Source: Clavelina lepadiformis
Taxonomy: Eukaryota; Chordata; Ascidiacea; Aplousobranchia; Clavelinidae
DNA length: 64,000 nucleotides
Direction of reading: 5' to 3'
Assembly (NCBI RefSeq): GCF_947623445.1
Contig: NC_135240.1
Span: 24,366,001 to 24,430,000, forward strand
Shown here: piece by piece, positions 29,569 to 64,000 of the stretch
Position numbering within the stretch: position 1 is the stretch's first letter
Layout of the letters: each line of letters begins with the position of its first letter
Translations under genes and position numbers: made by a program
Notes under the pieces: model-generated
The model's input: the letters and a program-made list of their open reading frames with translations, nothing else
Databases searched by the model: none
What the model was told of the DNA's origin: nothing

Positions 29569-31813
29569 TTAACATTTCAGCAACAAGTCGTTCCAAGTAG
29601 GAGCAGCGCAAAATCCTGCCGGTATCTTGTTAATCTCGTCCACAAGATTTTTCTTTGCGTCCGCAAAACTTGAGTAAAAGAATTGTTGGAAACAAGTACA
29701 TTTCGTGTCAAAAGCCTGTGAAAGGTTGAAAGCGTGTAATTAGTGCTGCTTTCGCTAGGGACACTTGCTTTAAAAAAGAATAGGATTTCCTTTTTCTCAG
29801 TCCAAGTTTTCCGTTTACGAATATACGCCTACCTGCATGTGGTCTTTGCAATTTTTATCATTCCCGATAAAAACCGACACGATGCAGCTTCCTTCGGCTT
29901 TGTAGCGATCTCTCACTATCTCTGGTGTCAAGTTATCGTTACCATTTCCGCAGCTGTATAAGTAAACCATAATAATAACTTTAGACAAACTGACAGTACC
30001 GCAAATGAGAGAAAAATGTTAGAAGAAAAATTGCAGTCATTCAACATTGAGCGTGATTTTCTGATCTTACGAATCTGATTTGTTACAGCATTAACAACAT
30101 TTCAATTTCTCACCCGTCTGAAATGACGAAGGTCATTTGTCTTACTCTTGGATCTCTGTAGCGTGATCCTTTTGATTTATCGTGGAGGATATTTGATCGA
30201 GCCTTGTCTACGGCTGCATTCAAAGCAGTTCCACCATTTGGACTTATCCTACAGAACAGAACGAAAATGTTCACAATCCCGAACATGCAGCATATTACCT
30301 GCATATGCAACTAACTAGATTTAGTCAATCCCTACTAGTAACCTTGAAATGTCTCAGCATGTGTTGACATGAATTTCGGCACAAAACTTACTTCAAACCT
30401 TTGATAGCGGCTTCGAGAGCTGGTTTTTGGTCTTCCCTTGCAAATCGGTTCATTTCAATATGGCGATGGAACCCAGTATCAAAGGAAGCCACTGCTACCC
30501 TGGTACGGTCTGAACTTAGGTCAATTGCTTGGCAAATGACTGTAAAAAAGTGATATGGGAATGTTTTCTGCATCTACAAATGGCCCACGCTAATAACTGT
30601 CCTGAGGGCAGAAATTTATCACATCCTATAACGTTTTGAGGTTTAGTTTGAACGTTTGTGATCGCTGCTTTAAATTTATGTATTTTATTTGAAATTGAAC
30701 AAGCACTTTTTCGATTTCTAGGGTTACAAAATATAAAACACCAACACGTATAACTCGAAATAGGCTACTATACCGTGTACAATAGAAGCTGCAACCTCCT
30801 TGATAACCTGCATGTTACTGGAACTACTTATACTTCTACTCTTGTCCATCAGCAAAACAATGTCGCTAAATTGTTCGAGCTGTGCATAAAAGCAAAGTGA
30901 AATGTATTCATCAAATTTCATATATCACAAAGTCATCCTGAATCAAATCATCTTTTTTTGAAAAAAAAAAAAAAGTTTTTTGTATTGTTTTTCTAGAGCT
31001 AAAAACGTCAGTGAGCGTGGAGTTATCTTTAAACAAGACTATGTAAGAACAGCTGTATTGCTGACATTGCCACCTACATAATACTGAAGCATACTCACAA
31101 TTTGTCGGCGGAAACGCTTCAAAAACGATGCCAGAGTTTCTTCTTCATCCACCGATCTTCTCTTACGACTCTTGTGCGGACTACAGTTTCCAGACGCAAG
31201 AACTTGTCCTGCAGGCGTCTTTATGACATCACAATATTCACCTTTGGAGTTTTTTTCGCGAGGTAAGTTAGTAGCCCCAGAACTCAACGTTCCTTTAGAA
31301 GACGCGAAGGGTGAAGTAAGTGAAGCCACGGCGGTTAGCAGGACGTTGGTCGCCACTTTGCTCTCTTCACCAGGGGATTGACCACAAGCTGTATACAAAC
31401 ACGTGTTTAGCTTTATCATACATCACTGCTTATTGTAAGAAACTTGCGGCCGTTTATCTACATACGTCTTGTTTCCTTTGTTTGCAAATTTGGGCTGCAA
31501 GCCTTTCCACCACCGCTAGCTGGCGTCACGTATCTGATTCTCGTCTCTACAGATGTTCCGTCGGGCAGTGGCCGACAGTTCTTCCAGTTCGTCCACGGAG
31601 TAATGTAACAATCACCTTGAAGGAAAAATGTGAATTTTTGAAAGATAAGAAGCACATTTGGTCGTATTAAAAGTCCGTTTCAAATAGATATAACTGCTTA
31701 CGTCTTGTCGAACCTCCTCCGAATAGAAAGCCATTGGCGAAGAAGAATTGGCTTCCAAAGATACCGAGTAGCAACGGTAACATAACCACTTTGTCTGCCA
31801 CGTTCCTTGACAT
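29569..31813 (-). CDS. Secreted TSP1-VWA protein, family member C
   Basis: Eight minus-strand exons: 31813-31702, 31615-31466, 31388-31099, 30879-30774, 30539-30392, 30248-30114, 29953-29833, 29715-29569; phases agree, 402 residues. Exon 1 is a signal peptide (KVVMLPLLLGIFGSQFFF). Exon 2 is a TSP1-like module (CYITPWTNWKNC). Exon 3 ends in a linker with a furin-type site (SRKRRSVDEE) and a second basic stretch (RFRRQ). Exons 4-6 form the VWA domain with MIDAS elements DKSRS, GGTAL and FVISDG, so metal binding is expected. Exons 7-8 give a tail with paired cysteines (CTCFQQFFYSS, GFCAAPTW). It is the most diverged of the four long members and lies outside the recent duplications. Presumed extracellular adhesion or coat protein; partner unknown. 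Confidence 0.87.
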
Positions 31814-32589
31814 TTTATGCAAAACGACTATTAAGTCTTCAAAATACGTTTTAGGTATGAGATCGATAGAAATGTTTTGGGTTTTTATACTGATTTCTGA
31901 GGGGAATCACATTCCTAAATTGCTCAATTTATGCTCGTAAGTGACCCGAAAGTGACAGAGAAACAATAAAAAGTTCGTAAAAACTTTTTGCCTCAAGTAA
32001 TCAAAACTTCATATTAACCCGTGTCAGAGGTTACAACGGGATATTTATGGTGAGATGCTTGTAAATGTCTTGGGAATAAAATTATCGAAACTGCAAAAGG
32101 TTTCATCAAAACAATTTTATTTCAAAACCGGGATTTATTTCCATTTTTCCGTACAATGTTTTGCGCAAAATAGAAGATTTTCCCATTGCTAAATTCACTT
32201 TGAAATTTAACTTTATTCTTTTATTCTAATTTACTCGAGGGGGATTTAACACAACATCCTTTGACTTGTTTATGCGGTTGTTTTCACACATTATGGCATT
32301 GACTATTTTCCGGCAACGTGACTATGGCTGAACTTGTTTTGTTAAAAGTTTAAATTGCTGTTGTGATTTAAGAATTTCTTTCCATCAAATTCAAAAACAA
32401 ATTTAAGTGTTTCTATTTATATCAAAATTTACATTGCAATATCACACACTTGTATTAACAATTTTCAATAACTTGCTAACATTTTTATGCATTTTTATAT
32501 GTTGTCTGAAACGGTTTAACGTATGTTTTGAAATCACTGTTTCCGCTTTTTGGAATGGTAATGGAACTTGCAGAAAATGTTTTGAATGT
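31814..32589. other. Upstream region of VWA gene C
   Basis: AT-rich, with no gene seen; it should include the promoter of gene C. Confidence 0.35.
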
Positions 32590-33862
32590 TATGGAGAGTT
32601 TGTTATGTTGCCTTGATTGCGCGTTCGCATTAAATTGAACAAAAAGACAAAGTCTGTAAACGTTTTCCACGTGTTTTTGACGTTAGTTCCATCACGCTTT
32701 CAAGCCAATACGAAAAACATAATAGATTTACGATCACCAACAGTAAATCGTATCGAGTTCCTTAAAGGACGTCATGAGTTCGTCATGCTCGTGACCGTGA
32801 CGTATATGCAGTATTTGTTGTTCTAGAATGAAAGCGTTTTGATTACTTAGTTTTGTCACGTTGCAAAAACAGCCAAACGACACACGACCGTTTAATATAC
32901 ATATTTCTTATTTTCACCGGCTGTTAATGTAGTAAGTATTTCTTTGCGTATAACTTTCGTATAGCACGTACAATACTATACACCAAAAATATTAATTGCC
33001 CAATATGACCGGTGTCGGTTATCGTCTCAGAGAAATATTTTTACTGAAACACCGTCTGGAAATTTTCCAATCATGAAAAAAAAACTCCCATCTAAGCCCC
33101 ATCATTTACAATTTAAATAGGATACCCACTTCCAGTTACAGCATAGGTTAAGACATTGTATGCCTACGCTCCCTTTGCTTGTACTGTACGATGGTGATTT
33201 CCGCTCGTCAACAATATAGTTGTTACCAGCTATTGAAAGAGTTTTGTTTACTGCGTAGTGGAGTTCTTTTTAATATGGCCCACATGTAGGACAAGCGTAA
33301 GCCAATGCAACATTAATACTTGTTAAGATGTATCATTATAACCTATTAATTGTGCTGTGCTTTTTAGTACTGTATATGTATGTTTCTGGCGGTCTATATG
33401 TCGCCACACGACCTTACAATAATATTGCACCGTTGTTTAAGGAGTATATTTGTCACTTATCATGTTACTACACAAATGAATGGTCATGTTGGGGTCTTGA
33501 TGTCTTTCCTCGTGACTTGAGCGGCGCATCACACACTGCGGTTTTTGCGTGTATAGTTAAATAGTGCTTGCGGCAAAATTGTCATTAACAAGTATGTTAT
33601 GTTATGGTATGGTATCATGACTAATCTTTGTCCTAGAACTAAGGAAAGTCTTTACACGACTTAAAGTCGGCGATGATTCTTTATGATGATTTATGATGAT
33701 TACTTTCTCATGACTGGTGACTTTTCTCTCGTCGCAATACATTACAAAATGTCAATAAAAACACCAGAAACATTTTCAGATGAAAGTGCAATGTGTTTAT
33801 TTCCTTATACTATTATTGATGTAAACATCATTTTAAATGTCACTAAAGGACAACTTTGCGGG
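32590..33862. repeat. Duplicated 3' flank of VWA gene D
   Basis: This 1.3-kb segment recurs nearly unchanged at 36871-38129 (3' of gene E) and, inverted, at 57836-58977 (3' of gene F) and in part at 45516-46507 (3' of gene G). Recognisable words include catcacgctttcaa, ggcggtctatatgtcgcc and cgacttaaagtcggcgatga. Open frames inside it (32617-32826, 33328-33564, 33683-33874) recur only because the DNA is duplicated; their frames are not preserved in every copy. A reverse-strand AATAAA at about 33800 is a plausible poly(A) signal of gene D. Confidence 0.8.
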
Positions 33863-36384
33863 TTAGCATGTTAGCAACAGCGAATTCCATGTAGGAGCAG
33901 CGCAGTACCCAGACGGTACGGAATTGACTACATCAACAAGATTTTTCTTTGCGTCCTTAAAACTGGAGTAGAAGAATTGTTGGAAACATGTACATTCCGT
34001 ATCAAATGCCTGTTATAAATCAATAAATTATTCTGTGCTTCTTGGGATGTAACTTAAAAGTTGTAAACGACATGTAAAAATGACAGGATAAATTTATTTG
34101 GGTTTATTTTGATTTCTGTTTTATATTGCATACCTCCATGTGAGATTTGCAATTTTGATTATTTCCGATGAAAATGGAGACGATGCAGCTTCCTTCGGAC
34201 ATGTAGCGGTCTCTTACCATTTGTGGAGTCAGGTTAGGATTATTGCGTCCACAGCTGCAAGCGAAAGTTAAAATCTAATATCAACGACCAGCAACGACGC
34301 TTTAACAAACTCCTGTATATTTATTTATATACAATGGCAATGCTATATCTGACAAGCAACTACATAATAAATCCGAGCATGCACAAGAACAACTCCGATT
34401 AAATTTCTCACCCGTCTGAAATAACAAATGTCATTTGTTTCACATTTGGGTTCTTGTAACGTGATCCTTTGGATGTGTCGTGAAGCACAAGAGTTCTCGC
34501 CTGGTCTACTGCCTGGTCCAACGCAGTTCCACCACCAGGACTTATGCTATTTGAAAATATTTCAATTTAACGCTGTAACCTAAATATAGAGTTCTAAATC
34601 ATGTGTGATACGGTAGGGTTATGGGTAAACTTTTCCATTTGTTTGTAACCATTTGAAATAAGATGAAATTTTTAGCGAAAACATTTGTATTATGCAAATG
34701 TATGGTAATTGAGCTGTCACCAAATAATTCTATCCTATTGGTTAGAGCGAAAACTATATCCATGCAGTACGCTACATACTTTGCCAAGCCAAACCTTACG
34801 AGCGTTTGTTTAGATTTGGAAACTTTCAGTTAGAAACTTAATTACCTCAAATTTTTGATGGCAGCTTCAAGTGCTACTTTTTGGTCTTGTCTCGGAAATT
34901 GATTCATTTCAATAAGACGGCGGAAAGTGTTATCGAAGGAGGCCACGGCAACTTTTGTTCGGTCGGAACTAACCTCAATGGCGCCGCAAATTACTGTAAA
35001 AACAAACGGTTTTTAAATTTTTTTGATGTACACAACTAAAGCAGAACTATTTTCAGGCTAGTGTTATTTAATAGTTAACGAGTTTGTCCGTTTTAAGACA
35101 AAAAAATAACCAAAGAAATTATTACCTATAAATAGCACAAATTCTTTTTAAATTTATGTTGATATACTTCAAGCAATTGGGATAAAAATGAGGTATTTTT
35201 AAAGGTAGATCCATACCGTGTACAATAGCAGCTGCTACGTCCTTGACAACCTACATGTTATCAGCTGTTCCGATGCTTCCACTTTTATCAAGCACCAGAA
35301 CAATGTCGCTAAACTGTTCGACCTATGTACAAAAAAAATTATTATTAAAAGAATAGTGTTTTAGAAATATGTTAATTCATTTAAGTTTTACATCTTCTTG
35401 AACGTCGAAACAAGTTTGTGGTAAATTTAAAAATGCGAAAAAATAAAAGGAAAATGTTTACTGTCAGAGAGATTCCTCTTCAGTCTTAACACATCGAAAA
35501 ATGTGCCTTATAAATGAACTTAAAAAAAACGAATTCTTTTTATTATTAATGAAATATAGTTGGGCATCACTTACAGTCTGTCGACGAAATCTTTTCAAGA
35601 AGGATCCGAAAGTTTCTTCTTCCTGGTTCAGCGACCTCCTGCGACGGTTCAGATTAGGACTACAGTTTCCAGACGCAAGAACATTTCCTGAAGGAGTCTT
35701 TATGACGTCACAATAATCACCATTGACGTTCTGTTCACGAGGTAACTTGGTGGCACCGGAACCGAGCGTTCCCGTCGAAGACGAAAATGCGGAAGTGAGT
35801 GAAGAAACGGCTGTTAGCAGGATGTTGGTCGCTACTTGGCTTTCTCCTCCAGGAGTTGAAGCACAGACTGCGTAAGAAAATGCTGGTTATACTAGGCAAG
35901 ATACCATTTTTTGGTTACGACTTGGTTACGTACATTGCTTATTTGCCGCTGCTTTTATATTGCTAATTTTGTTTCCCCTCTATACTCCAAGTGCCCTAAG
36001 TCTTCTGTTTATGGTTTAATTGTGTAAACCCACCTCTTGTGTCTTTCGTTTTTAGGTTTGAAGCGCAAGGCATTCCACCACCGCTAGCTGGGGTCACGTA
36101 CCTAACTCTCGTTTCCACGGATGTTCCATCTGCCAACGGACGACAGTTTCTGAAGTCCGTCCATGGAGTAACAAAACAGTTACCTTTGGTACAAATGTCA
36201 GCATTATAACGCATCTTAACACATTATGACATAACAATACAGAAATATTGTAGAATCCAAAAATGAACAATTTCTAAAATTGCTTACGTGGTTTTCCTGG
36301 GTTGAAGAGAAATGCGTTGGTGATTAGGCATTGACTGCAAAGAACTAAAAGCAGCAGTTCACAAACACGGTTTTTTTCGACCAT
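33863..36384 (-). pseudogene. TSP1-VWA gene D with a premature stop in the VWA domain
   Basis: The eight-exon structure is complete: 36384-36288, 36183-36034, 35867-35575, 35322-35217, 34993-34846, 34546-34412, 34254-34134, 34009-33863; all phases agree (398 codons expected). It has a signal peptide (VCELLLLVLCSQCLITNAF), TSP1-like module (CFVTPWTDFRNC), furin-type RRRRS and VWA MIDAS DKSGSIG. In exon 4, codon 24, the otherwise invariant CAG of NMQVVKD is TAG (35253-35251). This would cut the protein after the first VWA strand, leaving signal peptide, TSP1 and linker. Everything downstream is intact and E and F have CAG at this place, so the change is recent: a polymorphic null, a young pseudogene or a sequencing error. 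The promoter TATA box is retained. Confidence 0.8.
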
Positions 36385-36870
36385 CTTTGTTGAAATAGGT
36401 TCTGGTAAAGTCTTGAACAACGTAAATTTGTAAAACAGACTGGAATGACATCCACAAAAGACGTTTTCCTTTATATAGCGTTTTTGAGGAAAATTTTATA
36501 AAAATAATTTGTTTTTTAGTGTAATTAGACTACAACAAGCAAAAAACAAGTTTTACAGGACAGATGTAAGGAAAAGACAAGTTCCATCACGCTTTCAAAA
36601 CAATACGAAAGACATATTAGATCTTCGACCACCAACAGTAAATCGTATCGAGTTCCTCGAAGGACGTCATGACTTCGTCACGCTCGTGACCGTGACGTAT
36701 ATGCAGTATTTGTTGTTCTAAAATGAAAGCGTTTTGATTACTTATTTTTTCACGTTGCAAAAACAGCCAAACTACACACGACCGTTTAATATGCATATTT
36801 CTTATTTTCACCTGCTGTTAATGTAGTAAGTATTTTTTTGCGTTTACCTTTCGTAAAGCACATACAATGT
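36385..36870. other. Upstream region of gene D with an extra partial repeat copy
   Basis: The part near gene D holds its TATA box. From about 36580 to 36850 there is a third, shorter copy of the flank repeat (words catcacgctttcaaaacaat and gtgaccgtgacgtatatgca), in tandem with the copy starting at about 36871. Confidence 0.7.
36468..36477 (-). promoter_or_regulatory. TATA box of gene D
   Basis: Reads TATATAAAGG on the minus strand, 84 bases upstream of the start codon; the same motif stands at similar distance in genes E and F. Confidence 0.6.
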
Positions 36871-38129
36871 TATGAAGAGTTTGTTATGTTGCCTTGATTG
36901 CGCGTTCGCATTAAATTGAACAAAAAGACAAAGTCTGTAAACGTTTTCCACGTGTTTTTGACGTTAGTTCCATCACGCTTTCAAAACAATACGAAAAACA
37001 TAATAGATCTACGATCACCAACAGTAAATCGTCTCGAGTTCCTCGAAGGACGTCATGAGTTCGCCACGCTCGTGACCGTGACGTATATAGTGTACAGTAT
37101 TTGTTGTTCTAGAATGAAAGCGTTTTGATTACTTAGTTTTGTCACGTTGCAAAAACAGCCAAACGACACACGACCGTTTAATATACATATTTCTTATTTT
37201 CATCTGCTACCTAATGTAGTAAGTGTTTGTTTGCGTATAACTTTCGTATTGCACGTACAATACTATACAGCAAAAATATTAATTGCCCAATATGACCGGT
37301 GTCAGTTATCGTCTCAGAGTAATATTTTTACTAAAACACCGTCTGGAAATTTTCCAATGATGAAAAGAAACTCCCATCTAAGCCCCATCATTTACAATTT
37401 AAATAGGATATCCACTTCCAGTTACAGCATAGGTTAAGAGAGTGTTAAGACATTGCATGCCAATTTGCTTGTACTGTTCGATGGTGATTTCCGCTCGTCA
37501 ACAATATAATTGTTACCAGCTATTGAAAGAGTTTTGTTTACTGCGTAGTGGAGTTCTTTCTATCGTGGCCAATGCAACATTAATACTTGTTAGGATGTAT
37601 CATTAAAACCTATTAATTTTGCTGTGCTTTTTTGTACTGTATATGTATGTTTCTGGCGGTCTATATGTCGCCATACGCATTTACAATATTATTGCAACGT
37701 TGTTTAAGGAGTATATTTGTCACATATCATGTTACTACACAAATGAATGGTCATGCTTGCCTCTTAATGTCTTTTCTTGTGACCAGATCCGCGCATCAAA
37801 CACTGCGATTTTTGCGTGTATAATTAAATTGTGCTTGCGGCAACGTTGTCATTAACAAGTATGTTAGGTTATGGTATGGTATCATGATTAATCTTTATTC
37901 TATAACTAAGGAAAGCCTTTACACGACTTAAAGTCGGCGATGATTCTTTAAGATGATTTATGATGATTATTTTCTCACGACTGGTGACTTTCCTCTCGTC
38001 GCAATACATTACAAAATGTCAATAAAAACACCAGAAACATTTTCAGATAAAAGTGCAATGATTTTATTTCCTTATACTATTATTGATGCAAACATCATTT
38101 TAAATGTCACTAAAGGACAACTTTGCGGG
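36871..38129. repeat. Duplicated 3' flank of VWA gene E
   Basis: Near-identical to 32590-33862 in the same orientation and to 57836-58977 in inverted orientation. No independent gene was recognised; the open frames shared with the other copies are by-products of duplication. Confidence 0.8.
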
Positions 38130-40649
38130 TTAGCATGTTAGCAACAGCGAATTCCATGTAGGAGCAGCGCAATACCCAGACGGTACGGAATTGACTTTAT
38201 CAACAAGATTTTTCTTTGCGTCCTCAAAACTGGAGTAGAAGAATTGTTGGAAACATGTACATTCCGTATCAAATGCCTGTTATAAATCAATAAATTACTC
38301 TGTGCTTCTTGGAATGTAACTTAAAATTTGTAAACGACATGTAAAAATGACAGGATAGATTTATTTGGGTTTATTTTGATTTCCATTTTATATTCCATAC
38401 CTCCATATGAGATTTGCAATTTTGATTATTTCCGATGAAAATGGAGACGATACAACTTCCTTCGGACATGTAGCGGTCTCTTACCATTTGCGGAGTCAAG
38501 TTAGGATTATTGTTTCCACAGCTGCAAGCGAAAGTTAAAATCTAATATCAATGACCAGCATCAGCGACGTTTTAACAAACCGCTGTATATTTATTTATGT
38601 ACAATGGCAATGCTATATCTGACAAGCAACTACATAATAAATACGAGCATGCACAAGAACAACTCCGATGAAATTTCTCACCCGTCTGAAATAACAAATG
38701 TCATTTGTTTCACATTTGGATTCTTGTAACGTGATCCTTTGGATGTATCGTGAAGCACAAGAGTTCTGGCCTGGTCTACTGCCTGGTCCAACGCAGTTCC
38801 ACCACCAGGACTTATGCTATTTGAAAACATTTCAATTTAAGACTGTTACCTAAATATAGAGTTCTAAATCATGTGTGATACGGTAGGGTTATGGGTAAAC
38901 TTTTCCATTTTTTTTATCCATTTGAAATAAGATGAAATTTTTAGCGAAAACATTTGTATTATGCAAATGTATGGTAATTGAGCTGTCACCAAATAATTCT
39001 ATCCAATTGTTTAGAGCGAAAACTATATCCAGTTCGCTACATACTTTGCCAAGCCAAACCTTACGAGCGTTTGTTTAGATTTGGAAACTTTCAGTTAGAA
39101 ACTTACCTCAAAGTTTTGATGGCAGCTTCAAGTGCTACTTTTTGGTCTTGTCTCGGAAATTGATTCATTTCAATATGGCGGCGGAAAGTGTTATCGAAGG
39201 AGGCCACGGCGACTCTTGTTCGGTCGGAACTAACCTCAATGGCGCCGCAAATTACTGTAAAAACAAAACTGCTTTTTAAAATTTTTTGCTCTACACAACT
39301 AAAGCAGAACTATTTTCAGGCTAGTGTTATTTAATAGTTAACGAGTTTGTCCGTTTTAAGGCAAAAAATGACCAAAGAAATTAATACCTATAGCACAATA
39401 TCTTTTTAAATTTATGTTGATTTACTTCAAACAATTGGGACAAAAATGAGGTATTTTTAAAGGCAGATCTATACCGTGTACAATAGCAGCTGCTACGTCC
39501 TTGACAACCTGCATGTTATCAGCTGTTCTGATGCTTCCACTTTTATCAAGCACCAGAACAATGTCGCTAAACTGTTCGACCTATGTGCAAAAATATAACA
39601 AATAAATATGAACAAAGTTGTGTTTTAAAAAAATGTTAATTCATAAAAGTCTTACATCCTCTTGAACGACGGAACAAGTTTGTGGTGAATTTAAAATTGC
39701 GAGAAAATAAAAAGAAAATGTTTACTGTTAGAGAGATTCCTCTTCAGTCTTAACACATCGAAAAATGTGCCTTATAAATGAACTTAAAAAGAATAAATTC
39801 TTTTTATTATTAATGAAATATAGTTGGGCATCACTTACAGTCTGTCGACGAAATCTTTTCAAAAAGGATCCGAAAGTTTCTTCTTCCTGGTTCAGCGACC
39901 TCCTGCGACGGTTCGGATCAGGACTACAATTTCCAGACGCAAGAACATTTCCTGAAGGAGTCTTTATGACGTCACAATAATCACCATTGGCGTTCCTTTC
40001 ACGAGGTAACTTGGTGGCACCGGAACCGAGCGATCCCTTCGAAGACGAAAATGCGGAAGTGAGTGAAGAAACGGCTGTTAGCAGGATGTTGGTCGCTACT
40101 TGGCTTTCTCCTCCAGGAGTTGAAGCACAGGCTGCGTAAGAAAATGCTGGTTATACTGGGCAAGATACCATTTTTTGGTTACGACTTGGTTACGTACATT
40201 GCTTATTGCCCGCTGCTTTTATATTGATAATTTTGTTTTCCTCTCTATACTCAAACTGCCCTAAGTTTTCTGTTTATGGTTTAATTGTGTAAGCTCACCT
40301 CTTGTGTCTTTCGTTTTTAGGTTTGCAGCGCAAGGCATTCCACCACCGCTAGCTGGGGTCACGTACCTAACTCTCGTTTCCACGGATGTTCCATCTGCCA
40401 ACGGACGACAGTTTCTGAAGTCCGTCCATGGAGTAACAAAACAGTCACCTTTGGTACAAATGTCAGCATTTTAACGCATCTTTATACATTATGACATAAC
40501 AACACAGGTATATTGTAGAATCCAAGTGTGAACAATTTCTAAAACTACTTACGTGGTCTTCCTGGGTTGAAGAGAAATGCGTTGGTGATTAGGCATTGAC
40601 TGCAAAGAACTAAAAACAGCAGTTCACAAACACGGTTTTTTTCGACCAT
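38130..40649 (-). CDS. Secreted TSP1-VWA protein, family member E
   Basis: Eight minus-strand exons: 40649-40553, 40448-40299, 40131-39839, 39580-39475, 39254-39107, 38816-38682, 38521-38401, 38276-38130; 398 residues in an unbroken frame. Domain order: signal peptide ending about residue 25 (CLITNAF), TSP1-like module (CFVTPWTDFRNC, GGGMPC), linker with furin-type NRRRRS and a second RFRRQ, VWA domain about residues 181-345 with DKSGS, GGGTAL and FVISDG, and a Cys-rich tail (CTCFQQFFYSS, GYCAAPTW). The MIDAS ligands are complete. It is an extremely close relative of D and F; with F it forms the arms of a large inverted repeat. Gene G starts 2.7 kb away on the opposite strand, so the two are divergently arranged. 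Function in adhesion or extracellular recognition is inferred from domains only. Confidence 0.88.
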
Positions 40650-43307: not shown

Positions 43308-45515
43308 ATGGCAGGAAGAAGGCTTGTATTTTCATTTCTCATTGGCGTCATTTATTGCCAAACTATTCTCATCCACGGAGGAGAAATCGATTTTGGTAAG
43401 CACTGTCGAAGATCAAGCAACAATACATCTTGCGTAAAGTTTTTCATTTTACCGCAAAACTTGCTTATTTAAGAAGTCACATTTGTCACATTCATTAAGA
43501 AACAGCACGAGATGTCGTTTTCCTGTTGGACAAAAGTGGAAGCATTGGAAGCACCGAAAACATGCAGGTCGTCAAAGACATGGCAGCGGCTATTGTGCAT
43601 GGTGAATATTATACTTTTTCGCAAGTCGGAACAAATCGTTTTACTTTTTAACCATAGTAATTGAATGTTGAGCATGCATATTGCACACAACTTGTAGTTT
43701 GTACTAAGTTACAAAATCGAAAATTTCCCCAAACAACTTAATTTTGTTAAGCTGGAAAAATTGCGTATACTGTTTTTGAAATTGGTAAGATATTGTGAAT
43801 TAATCCAAAATTTTTATAAACATAAAACTTATAATGTCTTATTTGAAACTTAATAGTCATTTGCGGAGCCATTGAAGTAAGTTCCGACCGAACGAGAGTT
43901 GCTGTTGCTTCATTCGACAATGCCATTCACCGCCACATTGAAATGAATCAGTATGTGAGACCTGGACAAAAGGCAAAACTAGAGACTGCTATCAAGCAAT
44001 TGAGGTACAGTGTACCCAACAATTGAAATGTTTATATAGGATTTTGAAAAAGTAAACCTATATTTATACTCCACAGTCACACGGTGAGTATAGTACATAA
44101 AATTTAGTTATACTTGCACGTCTAAGACAGCTTTCCATTAAAAGTAACGACACAAAAGTGTCTCAAGGCAACGTTAAACTGTTAATTTTTGTATGAATAA
44201 TTATAATTCACTAAAGACCGCACCAATTACAAAATGACTTTCAACTGCACTTTTACCAGCGTTACCAGGTTTTATTTTTCAGAGTCAGTCCTGGCGGAAG
44301 CTCGTCATTAAATGTTGCCTTGGAAAATGCTCGAAGATTAATTCTACACGATACGACCAAAGGAGCTCGTTATGGAGATCCACGAGTGAAACGAACAACC
44401 TTTGTAATAACGGACGGGTTAGTATCTGTAAGAAATCAACTTGACGTAAGCATAAGAAACGTCATGTTTGGAATCATATACAATAATATGCAGAAGCATT
44501 AGGCCCGCATTAAAATATCGAATGTAGTGGACCTTGTACCCTACATATAGGCCTACAATGTTGCTATTGATCTGTAAAACTGGCAATAAATTTGAAAAAC
44601 TAATGCACGCGGATTTTCTAATGTTTAGATGTGCGACCTCACGGAGTGGTTTAACTCCGAAACAGGTCAGAGACAACTACGTAGCTGATGGAAGCTGTAT
44701 TGTTTTCATTTCTATCGGAAATCATTCAATCTGTAAAGCAAGGTTGCAGGTATAGCTAATAGACGAAGTTCATTAGTTTCTCACAGGTAATTTTTCAAGA
44801 ATCCTGAAAAGCAAGGTTTCCCAAATCGTGTGCGGTACTTACGTCACAAGTGTGCGGCAAAACTTTTGAAATTGCTTTAGCAATTTTTTTACTAAAAAAA
44901 CAACGTTAATCAAATACTACACGGCCAAAATAGCAATAACTTGCTAACTGTAAAGTACTATATTTCGTAATCTTGTTAACGCTGAAGTACGGTTGTGCCA
45001 CAATGAGATTAATTCTTTATTCTTATTGTGACCAAATCACCCTGTGTTGATAAACAGTAAGAAATACTTCAAAGCTACTTAAAATTACTTATACTTTAGT
45101 ACCTATAAAAAGTTAAATTTTAAGTTTGACAATAAGTTCATAGTTCATCTACATTCTGGTGTTTTGAAACATCATTAAACTTATTACGTCACGATCGGCA
45201 AGAATGGCGAAATCACTGAATCGCCCCTCGTGTGGGATTTATGTTGTGTCTTATTATAAATTTAAGTTATGTTGTGTAGGGCGCCTTGGACAAAAATAAT
45301 TTCAAAACGTCAGTGTACGCTAAGGTATATTTTATGCATTACTATGTACATGAACTTTATTGCTGCAGGCGTTTGATACGGAATGTACATGTTTCCAACA
45401 ATTCTTCTACTCCAGTTTTGATGACGCAAAGAAAAATCTTGTTGATGTAGTCAATTCGGTACCGTCTGGGTACTGCGCTGCTCCTACATGGAATTCGCTG
45501 TTGCTAACATGCTAA
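43308..45515 (+). CDS. Short secreted VWA protein, family member G (chimeric last exon)
   Basis: Six plus-strand exons: 43308-43395, 43500-43601, 43857-44004, 44283-44417, 44629-44749, 45369-45515; phases agree, 246 residues. It has a signal peptide (RRLVFSFLIGVIYCQTILI), then directly the VWA domain with DKSGSIG near residue 42 and FVITDG, then the family tail. TSP1 module, linker and furin-type site of C-F are absent. The MIDAS threonine of GGGTAL is replaced by Ser (GGSSSL), a residue that can still bind metal. Donor GTTAGT after exon 4 is slightly unusual and shared with H. Exons 1-5 and introns match gene H closely, but the last exon and 3' flank match genes D, E and F instead, with the switch in the first dozen bases of the exon. 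Confidence 0.87.
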
Positions 45516-46507: not shown

Positions 46508-47806
46508 TAATTCTTCTAGAATCTAGAATCTAGCCTTCTAGAATCAGTTTCCTTGTTTGTTTTATTATGACGTCTTAGGCTCGAATCCGACATTTTTCCA
46601 CGAATCTGTTGTGCGCACACAAGTTTGTTTCTTGTGAAAGAGTTTGAAATAAAAGAAAGCCTTGAAAGTTATCGTCAAAATTGTTGCCAATTTCTCGGCC
46701 GTTGCAAGAACTTCGGAGGACATCGTCACCTTGTACTGCGTAGAATTGGGCGTGTAGCGGACTAGCTGTTATGCAGATATGCCCGATTAGCCTGAGCTAA
46801 GAACTTTTTATTTTTAACTGCTTGCCAGGCTCCGCAGATCTATTCTTCGTGCTTGCATTAGTTTCTAACTTGCTTGTGGTCTGAAAATTACTGAAATCTT
46901 ATTTTTATGCATATCTCGTTTATTACTTTTTTCGGTTTTTGCAAAACTAAAAAGCAGTTTACAGCCGATTATAGTAATGTATGGTCAAAATTGCGGTTTT
47001 TCTCTATACTAAATGAAGCTATAATATATAATAAAATAACTATACATTATTTATCTTACACTAATGACGTCAATATTGTGTGCTTTGACTGTATCTGATG
47101 CGTAACAAGCTTGATTTCTTGGTTGTGTTCTTGACTTCAGCCAATTATTGGCAGTGGTGCAATAAACCGTGGTTTGCTAATTTGTGCAAACTTACCAAAA
47201 CGGCTCTTATTTTCAGCCAAACACTGCAAATACGGATCAGATCCGTCAAGTGAATCCACACGCTTTATTTGATAGTGCGACGCAAAGTTATAAAACATTC
47301 AATCGTTTACAAAGTAATGTTGCGTAATGTTTTGAATTTTGTGAAATAGTTTTACGAGTTTCGTAAGAAAATATGTTGGAGAGATATTGGTTTATAACAT
47401 GTATGATGTATGAGCATGTATGAACATATGAACATGTATGAGCAATTTTGAATCCACTTCAGCGAAAGATTATGCAAGATAGGCCTATAAGCACTTCACG
47501 GATGCTTGTTCCACTGCAGCAAAATTTTGCACAGAAAACTTTGGTAATTTAAATTGGGTCTGAAAACATTTGCTTTACAGTCGACAACCAATTAAAGTGG
47601 CGGAACACGGTAAAGCGTTAAATGGTCCATTTTTGTCTGAAAACAACTGTCAGAAATTTCTTGAAAAAACTAATTCGGTACAGAGGTACCGGTATCATGC
47701 AGCACTGAAGAAGTACCGCGTTACAGTAATTCGGTACTAGAGTACAGCGGTACTGTCCACCTATGACTATAATGAAACTTGCTAACCTGTTTACAATTTA
47801 ACACAG
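46508..47806. repeat. Repeat unit carrying VWA fragment I
   Basis: From about 47105 the DNA matches 60410-61105 (words ccaattattg, ccaaaacggctcttattttc, gttggagagatattggttta). Short internal repeats: tctagaatc words at about 46513-46545 and catgtatgag-like words at 47395-47445. No gene upstream of the VWA exon could be identified. Confidence 0.6.
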
Positions 47807-47954
47807 CCATTTGTGATAATATTGCCCTAAGTTTTGACCGAAATAGAATTGGAGTAGCAGCTTTCGACCATGATTTTTATCGGCTTATTGAACTAAACCA
47901 ATACAGCACTACGGGAAGCAAGGCGACATTAGAGAAGGCCATAAAAGATTTACC
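47807..47954 (+). pseudogene. VWA gene fragment I (single exon)
   Basis: A 148-base exon with acceptor and donor, the same length and phase as the second VWA exon of C-F. It encodes AICDNIALSFDRNRIGVAAF and continues through LIELNQYSTTG to KAIKDL, clearly homologous to the family exon reading AIEVSSDRTRVAVASF. The frame is open here, but no other exon was found nearby; the following sequence runs into a hAT fragment near 48128. Treated as a relic of a diverged family member. Confidence 0.7.
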
Positions 47955-48127
47955 GTAAGTAAAATAAACTTATTAATTTGTCGTAAATTGTTGAATAAAT
48001 GACCGTACTTTGCAAAGTCTGTAAAGTACATGATTTGCCGTTGATATTTTGATTCATATAAAGGCGTTAAGGTATAATCAAATATTACAAATGGACACCT
48101 TTAAAGCATTGAAAAACAAACATGCAT

Positions 48128-48742
48128 CTGTAAAGAAAATTGTGTTGTTTTGAGTTCATCACAAAGTTTATTTTCAATGTCAATTGCCATTTCATCAATT
48201 CTGGAAGACACAGTACTATTGTTCAGTGGAATCGAAGGTGTTACATCTTTTTGAGTGGCCATCATAGTACTGTTGATTTCTTTCACAGCTGGTATAATAA
48301 GTTCTTCACCAATAGTGTGCGATTTTCCACATTTTGCAATGAGCTTTGAAACTTTGTAAGATGCAATAAGACCTTTCTCAACTTCATTTCTGCTTAATTT
48401 GAATAGTGCTCCTATGGTGGAGCGTTTTTCAAATTTTTCTTTCAGATCACGAAAGTATGCAACATCCTTGTTTGCTTTTTCGGGATGCTTTGTCTTCAAA
48501 TGATCAATCATTCTCGAAGGTTTCATTCCTTCATTTGTAAAAGTTTTCTCGCATATTAAAAACGTTGGTAATTGTCCATTAGTCACAGAAGGAATAACAC
48601 CATATTTTAAGTATTCACTTGAGTATTGCGACACTTTCGCTCTGAATATAGCGCCCCCCATAGCGCCCCCTGAGTATTTCCGCCCCTCTAAAAATCAAAA
48701 ACGCCCACTGGGGGGCGGTAGCGCCCACGTTAAGAACCACTG
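48128..48742 (-). mobile_element. hAT transposon fragment with BED-finger transposase N-terminus
   Basis: A minus-strand frame at 48661-48101 resembles the N-terminal part of SCAND3/ZBED5-type hAT transposases: YLKYGVIPS, a BED-finger remnant (CEKTFTNEGMKPSRMIDHL then KTKHPE) and a following helical segment (ASYKVSKLIAKCGKSHTIGE). The first Cys of the finger is missing. The outer end is intact: the element ends at 48742 with taagaaccactg, followed by the target octamer ccttagta (48743-48750). The other end is lost; near 48128 the element is joined directly to the VWA fragment unit. Catalytic core and dimerisation domain are absent. Confidence 0.78.
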
Positions 48743-50085: not shown

Positions 50086-52297
50086 ATGGCAGGAAGAAGG
50101 CTTGTATTTGCATTTCTCATTGGCGTCATTTATTGCCAAACTATTCTCATCCACGGAGGAGAAATCGATTTTGGTAAGCACTGTCGAAGATCAAGCAACA
50201 ATACATCTTGTGTAAAGTTTTTCATTTTACCGCAAAACTTGCTTATTTAAGAAGTCACATTTGTCACATTCATTAAGAAACAGCACGAGATGTCGTTTTC
50301 CTGTTGGACAAAAGTGGAAGCATTGGAAGCACCGAAAACATGCAGGTCGTCAAAGACATGGCAGCGGCTATTGTGCATGGTGAATATTATACTTTTTCGC
50401 AAGTCGGAACAAAACGTTCTACTTTTTAACCATAGTAATTGAATGTTGAGCATGCATATTGCACACAACTTGTAGTTTGTACTAAGTTACAAAATCGAAA
50501 ATTTCCCCAAACAACTTAATTTTGTTAAGCTGGAAAAATTGCGTATACTGTTTTTGAAATTGGTAAGATATTGTGAATTAATCAAAAATTCTTATAAACA
50601 TAAAACTTATAATATCTTATTTAAAACTTAACAGTCATTTGCGGAGCCATTGAAGTAAGTTCCGACAAAACGAGAGTTGCTGTTGCTTTATTCGACAATG
50701 CCATTCACCGCCACATTGAAATGAATCAGTATGTGAGACCTGGACAAAAGGCAAAACTAGAGACTGCTATCAAGCAATTGAGGTACAGTGTACCCAACAA
50801 TTGAAATGTTTATATAGGATTTTGAAAAAGTAAACCTTTATTTATACTCCACAGTCACACGGTGAGTATAGTACATAAAATTTAGTTATACTTGCACGTC
50901 TAAGACAGCTTTCCATTAAAAGTAACGACACAAAAGTGTCTCAAGGCAACGTTAATTAAACTGTTAATTTTTGTATGAATAATTATAATTCACTAAAGAC
51001 CGCACCAATTACAAAATGACTTTCAACTTCACTTTTACCAGCGTTACCAGGTTTAATTTTTCAGAATCAGTCCTGGCGGAAGCTCGTCATTAAATGTAGC
51101 CTTGGAAAATGCTCGAAGATTAATTCTACACGATACGACCAAAGGAGCTCGTTACGGGGATCCACGAGTGAAACGAACAACCTTTGTAATAACGGACGGG
51201 TTAGTATCTGTAAGAAATCAACTTGACGTAAGCATAAGAAACGTCATGTTTGGAATCATATACAATAATATGCAGAAGCATTAGGCCCGCATTAAAATAT
51301 CGAATGTAGTGGACCTTGTACCCTACATATAGGCCTACAATGTTGCTATTGATCTGTAAAACTGGCAATAAATTTGAAAAACTAATGCACGCGGATTTTC
51401 TAATGTTTAGATGTGCGACCTCACGGAGTGGTTTAACTCCGAAACAGGTCAGAGACAACTACGTAGCTGATGGAAGCTGTATTGTTTTGATTTCTATCGG
51501 AAATCATTCAATCTGTCGAGCAACGTTGCAGGTATAGCTAATAGACGAAGTTCATTAGTTTCTCACAGGTAATTTTTTAAGAATCCTGAAAAGCAAGGTT
51601 TCCCAAATCGTGTGCGGTACTTACGTCACAAGTGTGCGGCAAAACTTTTGAAATTGCTTTAGCAATTTTTTTACTAAAAAAACAACGTTAATCAAATACT
51701 ACACGGCCAAAATAGCAATAACTTGCTAACTGTAAAGTACTATATTTCGTAATCTTGTTAACCCTGAAGTACGGTTGTGCCACAATGAGATTAATTCTTT
51801 ATTCTTATTGTGACCAAATCCCCCTGTGTTGATAAACAGTAAGAAATACTTCAAAGCTACTTAAAATTACTTATACTTTAGTACCTATAAAAAGTTAACT
51901 TTTAAGTTTGACAATAAGTTCATAGTTCATCTATATTCTGGTGTTTTGAAACATCATTAAACTTATTACGTCAAGATCGACAAGAATGGCGAAATCACTG
52001 AAGCGCGCCTCGTGTGGAATTTATGTTGTGTATTATCATAAATTTAAGTTATGTTGTGTAGGGTGCTTTGGGCAAAAATAATTTGAAAACGTCAGTGTAC
52101 CCTAAGGTATGTTTTATGCCCTACTATGTACATGAACTTTATTGCTGCAGGCGTTTGATACGAATTGCTTGTGTTTTCAACAATTCTTCTTTTCAAGTTT
52201 TGCCGACGCAAGATCAAATTTTGTTGACATCATCAATAACCTACCAGAAGGGTTTTGCGCTGTTCCGACATGGGATGATCTATTACCTGCCTGCTAA
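50086..52297 (+). CDS. Short secreted VWA protein, family member H
   Basis: Six plus-strand exons: 50086-50173, 50278-50379, 50635-50782, 51065-51199, 51411-51531, 52151-52297; phases agree, 246 residues. Signal peptide (RRLVFAFLIGVIYCQTILI), VWA domain (DKSGSIG, GGSSSL, FVITDG) and Cys tail. It differs from G by few residues in exons 1-5 (for example SSDKTRVAVALFDN for SSDRTRVAVASFDN), but the last exon is clearly diverged (CLCFQQFFFSSFADARSNF, GFCAVPTWDDLLPAC) and probably represents the original tail of the short type. No TSP1 module. Presumed secreted, with metal-dependent ligand binding. Confidence 0.87.
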
Positions 52298-53555
52298 TGT
52301 ACTGTATAACGTATACAAAGCGTCATTGACTAAATTATATATATATTGTTGAGCAAAATTCTGTCGTGTTGAAATATTTATAAAAAAACTTTGCAATAAC
52401 TAGTTGTTTAATAACAATAACAATAACTATTCAATAACAATAAGGTTTGTCGAATTTTTTTTCATTAGCTATCCAATTCTGCAAAATAATGTTTTGTGTT
52501 TCTCATAACAATATTGGAGCTCGAAAGCCGGCAAACACGGCGTTTCTACAAGTTCGAACATTTTACAAAAATGCATTTCTCGTTGGATGTGAAAAAAATT
52601 TCGTTTTATCTTTGTTTTTTGTTTGTCACTTGTTTAATTGTAATAAAATTTGTACATACGCAAGTTCGCTTGCCAAACGATTCATTTTTAACTCTCACCA
52701 GGAAATTGAAATTCATCTACCGAACATCTTCGTGAATTGTCAGTTTGCGTCAGGCGGTAAACAAGTTCTATCGATAAATGAATTGATTAGATTAGTATAA
52801 AATAATGGCCGCTGCATGCACTTCATCAAGATTATTCATAGCTTGTGCTGTGGATAACTGGTTATATAGGCTACTTAGCTTACTATCTCCCAGAACATAT
52901 AAATCATAAACGGTGTTCTGTCACTACTGTATTTGCAGTAATCACTAATGTATAATTGTAGTTGTTTGAATTCATAAAAGCCTACACGGCGCTCAAAATC
53001 TTAATTCATTCAACCAACATAGGAGTAGCGCAACTCTAAGTGCATTACAACGGTTTAGCGTCATCGGGTATGTCACAGTACTTTATGAGCATTCCTTTAA
53101 TAAAAAAAACGTCTTTCTTGTATTGAAACCAAATGAATCAACTCTTCTCCAACAAACCACAGCGTCATCAATTGAATTATCATTAGGGTGTGAGATTGGA
53201 AATTGCGGGCAGCGTAACATACCTCGGGGGGAGTTGTGGGTAAAGGAGTAAACCGTGTACGTGTGTAGTAAACTTACTAACAATTAAAGGATTCACAAGT
53301 GGCATACCGATAAATGACTAATACTACATAAACATGCAATCACACATTATGGCCACAACAATACGGATGGAATACATCTTAATATAAATCTAAAAACACA
53401 TCGTGGAATATACATCTAACTATACAACTAAATACATATCAATGTGCAGTGCTACATTAACACCCCTGTCAGCATGGTTAATATACAAAGAATTATCAAA
53501 CATGAAATTTGGTGACATTCAATATACGAACAAGAATGTATCAAATATCAATGGA
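52298..53555. other. Unique spacer after gene H
   Basis: Not part of the recognised duplications. Open frames at 52447-52800 and 53083-53283 lack motifs and are not called. AT-rich. Confidence 0.4.
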
Positions 53556-55465
53556 ATCATTTTTATTTAGAAATAATAATTAATAGACCCATTGTTTGAC
53601 ATTCTTGTGATGTTCTTCTTCATTTTCTTCTGTCGAACATTTTCTTGATAAACAGTACGTGAGCAGTACTTCTGACAAAAGTTTATTTGTCAAATATTGT
53701 TTTAAACAAGTCGTTTCTTGTATCTTTTCATTTGCTACCGAAACACTTGTTTATTGTCGAGGTGTTATATCAATAACTAATTGTTAATTAATCAAAACTA
53801 GCTAATTAATAGCAAGTAAATATTGGAGTAATACTTCACTTCACGTTTGTTGAATATCTTAATTACTTAATTAGACGGTCAAAAGTTTCACTCCAAGCTT
53901 GTCGGAGTCTTTTTCAAAATTATTTTTGGCCCGAATTGTATGGGATAGATCTTTGCGGTCAGGAAAGTTTAAAAGCTATAAATTGACAAATTTGTCTGGA
54001 ACCGAAACCTGATTTCTTGTACTTTCTATTAATTCTTTTTATGATGAAGTTATTATGTAATTCATCTTAAACTATGGAATGGCAGTCGTTGCCATAATTG
54101 TCTATGTGGGGAGTTTCATGAACATCATAAAATGAACCTTGTGATTCGTCAGTAATGAGTCATAATTATTTCTGAAAACTTGTGTTGTCACGATGTCTGA
54201 CGCTAGATAGAGTTAATCGAACAAGTTCGAAACTTTACCAAATTTTTTGCTAATGTTCAATGACGTTCAGAAGACTTTATGCCCATTTTCATAAAAATAT
54301 ATCCGTAGGGCTGCAAATTTCACTTTCACCGCACATGTCTGCTGTGATGAAAAACGGTTTCTATATTTTGATGGTAAGGTCGTTCAAGTGTTCTAAACAA
54401 ATACACTACACATTGTACAATCATTGATATCGTGCTGTTTAACTCGCCTTTGGACCGTCCCATCCACCTGCGCAAACTGTCCTTAACATACTTAACTAAG
54501 GCAACGAATACCAACACTCCGCCAAAGCGATGACGTTTAACTGTGTTGCCTCGGGGTGTTGTTACGGAAATAATCGTCATGAGAATACGAAACTCGCTTT
54601 AAGTACCCGTGCATGACCTCATCGATGGGAAAGTGACGTTGTAATCGGTCCAGACCACAATCTTCTGAATGTTGATAAAACGTTGCTTCAAGCGGCGTAG
54701 TTTTCACAAAAGAATTTTCACACAAACGCCAAATCAAACAAAACAAGTGGGAAAGTTTAACGTAGTTGTTGCATAATAATCTAATCAGTTTTGATATAAT
54801 TTACAGCACTCGTAAATATTTGACGACGCAAAGAATTTTAATTGTAGTTTTTAATCTTTTTTGTCTCTTTGCTGGATGAAGCTCTGGAAACGCAATGTTT
54901 GTATTCACAGTATGGTAAACCATATAATTGTGGTATATAGTACGAGAAAGCAGACATTTATTCAAAATTGTGGAGTAAAAAGTTCAATTTATGAATGAAT
55001 GAATCAACGGTCATAACAATTTATAAGTAATGCAGTTGCGTGAAAGTAAGAAAACATTTCATTCAACATAAAAAAATAAACAAAATTCCCGAAATTTTAA
55101 CTATTTCTTTCAAACTGTAGTATGTAAAGATTTGTTTGTGAAAATTTCTGTCTTGCGTTTACTCTCTGAGAGCATAATTTTATAATTAAGAAATACCATT
55201 CGTTGTCAAACAACATGAAGTTAAAAACAGTTTTCGCAATTGCCCAGGGGCTGGAAATTATAATCAAATCTGTCATTTCTTCAAGTCTGTTCTGTAAAAC
55301 TTGTTTTTTTGCTTGTTGTACTCTATTTACACTAAAAGACAAATTTTTTTTATAAAATTTTCCTCAAAAACGTTATATAAAGGAAAACGTCTTCTATGGA
55401 TGTCATATCAGTCTCTTTTACAAATTTACGTTGTTCAAGACTTGCCAGAATCTATTTCAACAAAG
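53556..55465. repeat. 5' flank of gene F, inverted copy of the gene E/G intergenic region
   Basis: Inverted near-identical copy of 40650-42890 without the MITE. At the MITE target the sequence reads, on the minus strand, ccttagttaagtatgttaagg: the empty octamer plus four extra bases (54487-54501). Frames at 54326-54746 and 55097-55342 are by-products of the duplication. Confidence 0.75.
55374..55383 (+). promoter_or_regulatory. TATA box of gene F
   Basis: TATATAAAGG, about 90 bases upstream of the start codon, conserved in D and E. Confidence 0.6.
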
Positions 55466-57835
55466 ATGGTCGAAAAAAACCGTGTATGTGAACTGCTGCT
55501 TTTAGTTCTTTGCAGTCAATGCCTAATCACCAACGCATTTCTCTTCAACCCAGGAAAACCACGTAAGCAGTTTTAGAAATTGTTCACCCTTGGATTCTAC
55601 GATATACCTGTGTTGTTATGTCATAATGTGTTAAGATGCGTTAAAATGCTGACATTTGTACCAAAGGTGACTGTTTTGTTACTCCATGGACGGACTTCAG
55701 AAACTGTCGTCCGTTGGCAGATGGAACATCCGTGGAAACGAGAGTTAGGTACGTGACCCCAGCTAGCGGTGGTGGAAAGCCTTGCGCTGCAAACCTAAAA
55801 ACGAAAGACACAAGAGGTGGGTTTACACAATTAAACCGTAAATAGAAAACTTAGGCTACTTGGAGTGTAAAAGGGTAAAAAAATTATCAATATCAAAGCA
55901 GCGGGCAATAAGCAATGTACTGTAAGTCGTAACCAAAAAATGGTATCTTGCCCAGTATAACCAGCATTTTCTTACGCAGCCTGTGGTTCAATTCCTGGAG
56001 GAGAAAGCCAAGTAGCGACCAACATCCTGCTAACAGCCGTTTCTTCACTCACTTCCGCATTTTCGTCTTCGACGGGAACGCTCGGTACCGGTACCACCAA
56101 GTTACCTCGTGAAAGGAACGCCAATGGTGATTATTGTGACGTCATAAAGACTCCTTCAGGAAATGTTCTTGCGTCTGGAAATTGTAGTCCTGATCTGAAC
56201 CGTCGCAGGAGGTCGCTGAACCAGGAAGAAGAAACTTTCGGATCCTTTTTGAAAAGATTTCGTCGACAGACTGTAAGTGATGACCGACTATATTTCATTA
56301 ATAATAAAAAGAATTTATTCTTTTTAAGTTCATTTATAAGGCACATTTTTCGATGTGTTAAGACTGAAGAGGAATCTCTCTGACAGTAAACATTTTCCTT
56401 TTATTTTCTTGCATTTTTAAATTCACCACAAACTTGTTTCGTCGTTCAAGAGGATGTAAAACTTATATGAATTAATATTTTTTTAAAACACAACTTTGTT
56501 CATACTTATTTGTTATATTTTTGTACATAGGTCGAACAGTTTAGCGACATTGTTCTGGTGCTTGATAAAAGTGGAAGCATCGGAACAGCTAATAACATGC
56601 AGGTTGTCAAGGACGTAGCAGCTGCTATTGTACACGGTATAGATCCACCTTTAAAAATACTTCATTTTTATCCCAATTGTTTGAAGTAAATCAACATAAA
56701 TTTAAAAAGATATTGTGCTATAGGTATATTAATTTCTTTGGTCATTTTTTACCTTAAAACGGACAAACTCGTTAACTATTAAATAACAGTAGCCTGAAAA
56801 CAGTTTTTCTTTAGTTGTGTGCAGCTAAAACTTTTAAAAGCAGTGTTGTTTTTACAGTAATTTGCGGCGCCATTGAGGTTAGTTCCGACCGAACAAGAGT
56901 TGCCGTGGCCTCCTTCGATAACACTTTCCGCCGTCTTATTGAAATGAATCAATTTCCGAGACAAGACCAAAAAGTAGCACTTGAAGCTGCCATCAAAAAT
57001 TTGAGGTAATTAAGTTTCTATCTGAAAGTTTCCCAATCTAAACAAATACTTGTAAGAATTGGCTTAGCAAAGTATGTAGCGTACTGTATATAGTTTTCGC
57101 AGTCTTTCGGCAGTCATTGTAACAGTCTTAAATTTAAATGTTTTCAAATAGCATAAGTCCTGGTGGTGGAACTGCGTTGAACGAGGCAGTAGACCAGGCG
57201 AGAACTCTTGTGCTTCACGATACATCCAAAGGATCACGTTACAAGAATCCAAATGTGAAACAAATGACATTTGTTATTTCAGACGGGTAAGAAATTTCAT
57301 CGGAGTTGTTCTCGTGCATGATCGTATTTATTATGTAGTTGCTTGTCAGATATAGCATTGCCATTGTACATAAATAAATATGCAGCGGTTTGTTAAAGCG
57401 TCGCTGCTGGTCGTTGATATTAGATTTTTACTTTCGCTTGCAGTTGTGGAAACAATAATCCTAACCTGACTCCGCAAATGGTAAGAGACCACTACAAGTC
57501 CGAAGGAAGCTGCATCGTCTCCATTTTCATCGGAAATAATCAAAATTGCAAATCTCACATGGAGGTATGCAATATAAAACAGAAATCAAAATAAACCCAA
57601 ATAAATTTATCCTGTCATTTTTACATGTTATTTACAACTTTTAAGTTACATTGCAAGAAGCACAGAATAATTGATTGATTTATAACAGGCATTTGATACG
57701 GAATGTACATGTTTCCAACAATTCTTCTACTCCAGTTTTGAGGATGCAAAGAAAAATCTTGTTGATGTAGTCAATTCGGTACCTTCTGGGTACTGCGCTG
57801 CTCCTACATGGAATTCGCTGTTGCTAACATGTTAA
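55466..57835 (+). CDS. Secreted TSP1-VWA protein, family member F
   Basis: Eight plus-strand exons: 55466-55562, 55667-55816, 55980-56272, 56531-56636, 56858-57005, 57152-57286, 57444-57564, 57689-57835; 398 residues in open frame. Signal peptide, TSP1-like module (CFVTPWTDFRNC, GGGKPC), linker with NRRRRS and RFRRQ, VWA domain with intact DKSGSIG, GGGTAL and FVISDG, and Cys tail identical in pattern to D and E. Exon lengths equal those of D and E exactly. It is the inverted partner of E. AATAAA at 57897-57902 is the likely poly(A) signal. The product probably leaves the cell and may be cut at the basic linker, separating the TSP1 and VWA parts; cleavage is inference. Confidence 0.88.
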
Positions 57836-63963: not shown

Positions 63964-64000
63964 GTAAGATATATACATGTTATATGTTGCATATTTACAC

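Follow-up and report, generated by a model that had tools for sequence, protein, structure and literature searches.

A two-cluster ascidian gene family of putative secreted TSP1-like and VWA proteins with candidate convertase sites and a chimeric member

The apicomplexan adhesins TRAP and MIC2 combine a VWA domain with a TSP1 module, the VWA preceding the TSP1 in a membrane-anchored protein. The mussel byssus protein PTMP1 is a secreted VWA protein that binds collagen. Among tunicates, the accessible parts of two articles describe the oikosins of the Oikopleura house, secreted proteins of an extracellular structure with VWA in oik35 and TSP repeats in oik23 (PMC3390340), and the Ciona egg-coat protein CiVC57 and sperm Tast proteins, which are secreted or lie at the surface and carry a von Willebrand or a TSP1 module (PMC9265791). 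In the open-licence literature, as far as its accessible text goes, no description was found of a secreted tunicate family with TSP1 followed by VWA. Here we describe a candidate family of this kind from Clavelina lepadiformis, six gene-sized members of which lie at 29569-57835 of a 64,000-nucleotide stretch (the window, C1:24366001-24430000). A 309-aa exon with a match to cellulose synthase, a hallmark of tunicates, fits this origin.

We read its products, with about even confidence, as matrix or adhesive proteins that are secreted and processed by a convertase, the genes having been amplified through duplication and gene conversion. Genes A, B, C and F encode a TSP1-like module and a VWA domain, and D and E encode VWA only. 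The models were made by exon-by-exon tblastn and splice-site modelling, and the signal peptides were assessed by eye. A preliminary description had counted these six members, four with and two without the TSP1-like part, and two relics; the spliced models and the Pfam VWA matches of all five scanned proteins bear this out. The window genes are as follows.

29569-31813, minus strand: gene A, 8 exons, 402 aa; signal peptide, TSP1-like module, hairpin region and VWA; W-x-x-W present; Pfam VWA 2.9e-15, TSP1_spondin 25.3 bits
33863-36384, minus strand: gene B, 8 exons on the plan of A; in-frame TAG in the first VWA exon
38130-40649, minus strand: gene C, 8 exons, 403 aa; TSP1-like and VWA; Pfam VWA 3.3e-17
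43308-45515, plus strand: gene D, 6 exons, 246 aa; VWA only; Pfam VWA 4.5e-19
50086-52297, plus strand: gene E, 6 exons, 246 aa; VWA only, with its own tail kept; Pfam VWA 1.1e-18
55466-57835, plus strand: gene F, 8 exons, 403 aa; TSP1-like and VWA; Pfam VWA 9.9e-18

The family is larger than the 33-kb group first noted. That local cluster is real, but the family reaches past the window and has members on another chromosome too, with 11 loci in two clusters: six in the window, two beyond it and three on the other chromosome. In the searched assembly of 209,060,895 bases in 95 contigs, protein C gave 64 matches, all within C1:24395572-24456075 and C4:9014914-9048379. Protein I3 gave 54, and every match at E <=0.002 fell within the C1 and C4 clusters; its weaker matches elsewhere were generic TSP1 or VWA exons. 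A genome-wide VWA family search gave 150-odd exon matches and, among the matches listed, none in the window cluster, because the VWA domain is split over five exons. All five loci outside the window follow the eight-exon plan.

C1:24442660-24446089, plus strand: gene G
C1:24453388-24456087, plus strand: gene H
C4:9014911-9018665, minus strand: gene I1
C4:9032775-9036964, minus strand: gene I2
C4:9046293-9051429, plus strand: gene I3

In a tree of the VWA exons 4-7, I1-I3 stand apart from the rest (support 100/99), D joins E (100/98) and G joins H (93/90), and the A/B/C/F grouping is less firm (90/93). Ten of the eleven members have an uninterrupted reading frame and intact motifs. The exception is B, whose in-frame TAG at 35251-35253 on the minus strand upholds the nonsense mutation of the preliminary description; B is likely a pseudogene or a null allele. 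Exon lengths of 148, 135, 121 and 147, once thought constant throughout, are kept in 6/6 window genes and in G but differ in H, I1, I2 and I3. The 148-nt exon of D and E was picked by homology, a crude splice score slightly favouring a 136-nt variant over it (29.3 vs 29.0 and 29.0 vs 28.7). As side observations, the exon-7 donors of G and H are GC, not GT (L022 6788; L023 6774), and TATA-type boxes lie 74-116 bases upstream of the ATG in 11/11 members, in AT-rich DNA and without a shuffled control.

The VWA assignment is firm. Pfam VWA (PF00092) matched all five scanned proteins, the stop-bearing B being left out, at E-values from 2.9e-15 (A) to 4.5e-19 (D) and with 57.3-69.8 bits against a curated cut-off of 23.8. 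The metal ion-dependent adhesion site (MIDAS) is defined by D-x-S-x-S, a loop Thr and an Asp. D-x-S-x-S and [ST]DGC are present in 11/11 members, and the loop residue is Thr in nine and Ser in D and E. The secreted, MIDAS-bearing VWA family foreseen earlier thus finds support, with secretion predicted from signal peptides. The TSP1-like module precedes the VWA in 9/9 TSP1 members, and no membrane anchor is evident by eye.

Between the two modules lies the feature that suggests processing. R-x-R-R stands immediately N-terminal to the VWA in 9/9 TSP1 members, as RFRR in six, RLRR in I1 and I2 and RVRR in I3. Another basic site lies upstream, R-x-[KR]-R in seven of the nine and merely dibasic in G and H. 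The basic linker of the preliminary description is indeed a basic stretch, but its nature had been missed: it would be a pair of convertase-type sites at the domain boundary. The region maps to exon 3.

39839..40144, minus strand: exon 3 of C, with the hairpin region of two cysteines and the two basic sites (RRRR-S, RFRR-Q)
31099-31386: the same exon-3 region in A
35575-35880: the same region in B
55967-56272: the same region in F

Cysteine counts are even on either side of the cut site, with six on the N-terminal side in 9/9 and, in the VWA chain, eight in 8/11 members or six in I1-I3. The alignment shows the same two cysteine positions absent in I1, I2 and I3. We read this as the loss of one disulphide, the missing pair being the same in all three as expected. 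An AlphaFold2 model of exon 3, made from four sequences, gave a hairpin around the cysteine pair with block means of 79-86 in the predicted local distance difference test (pLDDT); the remainder was poor, and with a mean pLDDT of 59.8 the model was not good enough to search for related folds.

In D and E the signal peptide runs almost directly into the VWA, so these genes encode roughly the chain that the cleavage would free. The domain loss proposed earlier holds in that the family has members without the TSP1 part. It was, however, no bare exon deletion, since the first VWA exon starts differently, with 102 nt in D and E vs 106 in the TSP1-bearing members.

The proposed scheme is as follows. 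The precursor would start with a signal peptide, followed by a single TSP1-like module, then the hairpin region with its two cysteines and two basic sites, and last a VWA whose MIDAS is intact. A furin-type proprotein convertase would cut at R-x-R-R in the secretory route, separating the TSP1 piece from the VWA chain, and the freed chain would bind a matrix ligand via its bound metal ion. The TSP1 piece may be a chaperone, a latency piece or a separate adhesion module. D and E would produce roughly the freed chain, with the N-terminal piece absent. Gene structure, domain content, motif conservation, duplication, the chimera and average selection are seen directly in the DNA; secretion, cleavage, metal binding, ligand and tissue are inferred from it.

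A more elaborate version is tentative, and we think it rather doubtful. The convertase would yield two products of separate function, a faster-evolving TSP1-hairpin piece and a MIDAS-bearing VWA chain; the VWA-only paralogues would supply the chain unregulated, and gene conversion would exchange the tails of the VWA across the two classes, D being an example.

Selection on pairwise averages is mainly purifying, and near-neutral ratios are confined to the closest pairs, and there to the N-terminal piece. In the VWA part, the ratio of non-synonymous to synonymous rates (omega) is 0.15-0.17 between A and B/C/F, 0.18 for G-H and 0.12-0.16 between D/E and B/C/F, pairs in which synonymous divergence is 1.8 or more and near saturation. 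The whole-gene ratios of non-synonymous to synonymous proportions (pN/pS) are 0.46 for B-C, 0.54 for B-F, 0.43 for C-F, 0.32 for G-H, 0.37 for I1-I2, 0.30 for A-C and 0.38 for D-C, the last with a poorly aligned first exon. Fisher tests give p values for departure from neutrality of 0.021 for B-C and for C-F, 0.008 for I1-I2 and 5e-16 for G-H, and 0.087 for B-F. Introns diverge by 6.5-9.9% among B, C and F vs 2.2% at non-synonymous sites, and by 5.7% vs 1.9% between I1 and I2; the B, C and F proteins are ~95% alike. The mostly purifying selection is why supply of matrix, tunic or adhesive fits better than an arms race.

The copies would have come from tandem and inverted duplication, with exchange by gene conversion or unequal crossing over. 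Inverted arms link the B/C region to F over 804 nt at 97%, and further arms span 821 nt at 93%; F is an inverted copy of the B/C type. Both the duplication and the inversion of the preliminary description are thereby seen in the DNA, and its tail exchange appears in D, which carries a B/C/F-type exon 8.

D is chimeric, and the switch falls among the opening 13 bases of exon 8. Its identity to E, taken in 150-base blocks, is 0.94-1.00 between about 43200 and 45280 and 0.61 or lower from 45434. From exon 8 onward D matches B at 92-93%, and its exon-8 tail and 3' flank are of the B/C/F type. The claim rests on the DNA alignment because the exon-8 protein tree was uninformative, with none of its seven inner branches starred.

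45371..45381, plus strand: breakpoint interval of D in the D/E/F/B alignment, with an E-like base at 45371 and a B/F-like base at 45381

The two relics derive from the G locus, to which their exon-5 part is 94% and their upstream part 81-87% identical. Both carry the same two deletion junctions; therefore a deleted copy of G was itself duplicated.

47076..48129, plus strand: relic 1, G-locus pieces, one VWA exon among them, brought together by two deletions
60399..62027, plus strand: relic 2, both deletion junctions of relic 1, one extra G exon and a stop in the first exon piece

Carriage of the relics by a transposon was considered and dropped: despite nearby transposase-like open reading frames, both represent the G locus with an identical pair of deletions. 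Those frames, at 48101-48694 on the minus strand and 59969-60388 on the plus strand, look like pieces of hAT/ZBED-type transposases by eye; the former gave no Pfam match. Intron 4 of G (L022 5538-6030) holds a GGTACC-rich element with inverted ends, resembling a miniature inverted-repeat transposable element, and the last block of both relics starts within it at L022 5921. A repeated block of ~200-435 nt at 90-96% recurs in the flanks of members, at 32585-33013, 36480-37300 and 58789-58979.

Several roles compete with, or narrow, the matrix or adhesive reading. Its special case is an adhesive for settlement or attachment, a papilla or stolon glue in which VWA chains give cohesion; we consider this unlikely. 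The best single-domain match in the PDB is a byssus matrix protein, yet the VWA resemblance is generic. The idea of cohesion by vWFA domains reportedly draws on a stolon study of Ciona robusta, which we know through a review. That review of marine adhesives, in its accessible part, states that cohesion and cross-linking are thought to come from vWFA domains (PMC12472103). In Ciona settlement, VWFA proteins are three of the top ten rising but also one of the top ten falling, and nothing in the available text ties them to the Clavelina family (PMC13225635). Recognition proteins of allorecognition, immune surface or plasma, in which the variable N-terminal piece recognises and birth-and-death evolution shapes the copies, are quite unlikely. 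The tandem and inverted copies, the chimera, the nonsense copy and the near-neutral N-terminal ratios in G-H and B/C/F would suit them, and the accessible record of a Botryllus allorejection library includes VWA and TSP1 expressed sequence tags as separate entries (PMC2527998). Nevertheless, VWA ratios are 0.12-0.18 between subfamilies, whole-gene pN/pS is 0.30-0.61 in the eight pairs computed, B/C/F are closely alike, and the near-neutral counts are small and equally well explained by relaxed constraint. The recognition or coat role under birth-and-death that the preliminary description proposed is not supported, pairwise ratios being mostly well below 1. This goes halfway towards the outcome named there as contrary to the idea, constant copy number and one-to-one orthology with uniform purifying selection, although the closest pairs are near neutral in their N-terminal piece.

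Egg-coat or gamete proteins from follicle or germ cells have a slim chance. Rapid local duplication is typical of gamete genes, and the accessible text on ascidian fertilisation describes TSP1-bearing astacin proteases of sperm (Tast) and a major egg-coat protein with a von Willebrand domain (PMC9265791). However, a Pfam scan detected no ZP, EGF, astacin or fibrinogen domain in the five scanned proteins (E up to 1 for ZP and EGF), and no TSP1+VWA protein is named in the accessible parts of ascidian fertilisation reviews. Taken together, this analysis gave no positive evidence for gamete or immune recognition. The chance is just as slim that the copies are mostly decaying, one or two genes still working and the rest being relaxed duplicates retained by chance. 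The stop-bearing copy, the two relics and a D-E pair indistinguishable from neutral speak for decay, whereas 10/11 members are open with intact motifs and B-C, C-F, I1-I2 and G-H depart from neutrality.

The reading as processed matrix or adhesive proteins has observations against it as well. Matrix, adhesive and plasma roles are not separable on the present evidence. R-x-[KR]-R occurs once also inside the VWA of D and E, so a motif match alone is weak and the case for cleavage rests on position and conservation. TSP1_spondin (PF19028) scores are 25.3 bits in A, 20.7 in C and 23.4 in F, below the cut-off of 41 in 3/3. W-x-x-W is present in just four of the nine TSP1 members, with W-x-x-F in three and F-x-x-W in two, and by alignment the region has four cysteines vs the six of a TSP1 domain, with Q/E-T-R-x-R present. 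The module is called TSP1-like because of these scores, the incomplete W-x-x-W and the four cysteines. D-E is without significant constraint, with a whole-gene pN/pS of 0.61 (exon 8 excluded; Fisher p 0.49) and introns diverging by 2.1% vs 1.8% at non-synonymous sites. Exons 1-2 of G-H give an omega of 0.93 (20.5 vs 6.5 changes), and exon 3, with small counts, gives 1.03 for B-C, 1.18 for B-F and 7.0 vs 0 changes for C-F. These near-neutral ratios may reflect relaxed constraint, silent sites reset by gene conversion or N-terminal diversification.

As a gene-family event, the expansion is of an ordinary kind. D is a clean case of a coding chimera between inverted paralogues. If the cleavage is true, a single adhesion chain occurs within 30 kb both as a product of processing and in a form encoded ready-made, and the role of the TSP1-like piece is therefore directly testable in this natural pair. 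The family also offers candidate tunic, stolon or papilla matrix proteins for an ascidian of the aplousobranchs, on which molecular data are sparse.

Elsewhere in the window, rhodopsin-type receptor exons with LDL-receptor class A modules are probably an LDLa-bearing G-protein-coupled receptor. The other features are the following.

6656-11232, minus strand: the receptor exons, 7tm_1 5.9e-5 and 0.008, Ldl_recept_a 4.6e-6
13996-24529: several open frames resembling multi-pass membrane receptors by eye; no Pfam match at E 0.01 in the four scanned (14857-15192, 19544-20248, 23114-23788, 24071-24526)
63431-63967, plus strand: protein kinase exon, Pkinase 9.9e-24

The modules themselves are known; the TSP1-first order with twin conserved basic sites, the VWA-only paralogues and the exon-8 chimera were not met in the accessible parts of the literature searched. 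PTMP1 is the best single-domain match of the family profile in the PDB (independent E-value 1.1e-11), ahead of integrin alpha-X (4.6e-9). It comes from another phylum, with two VWA domains matched vs one here and no TSP1-like part or convertase sites reported by that search. The N-terminal VWA array of collagen VI alpha-3 shares the fold and has the top whole-chain score, 1.5e-46 over several domains, but its best single domain reaches merely 7.5e-5 and its collagen triple helix is absent here.

TRAP and MIC2, matched in the VWA at E 8e-5 to 0.007, differ in that the TSP1-like module comes first here and no anchor is evident; their likeness is a convergent combination. As the available text describes them (PMC9265791), CiVC57 carries EGF repeats together with a ZP domain and a transmembrane segment, and the Tasts carry an astacin domain, whereas no such domain was found in the five scanned family proteins, transmembrane segments being judged by eye. 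The oikosins, compared by description as far as the accessible text gives it, carry the two modules on separate proteins (PMC3390340), whereas the Clavelina family joins a TSP1-like module and a VWA in one.

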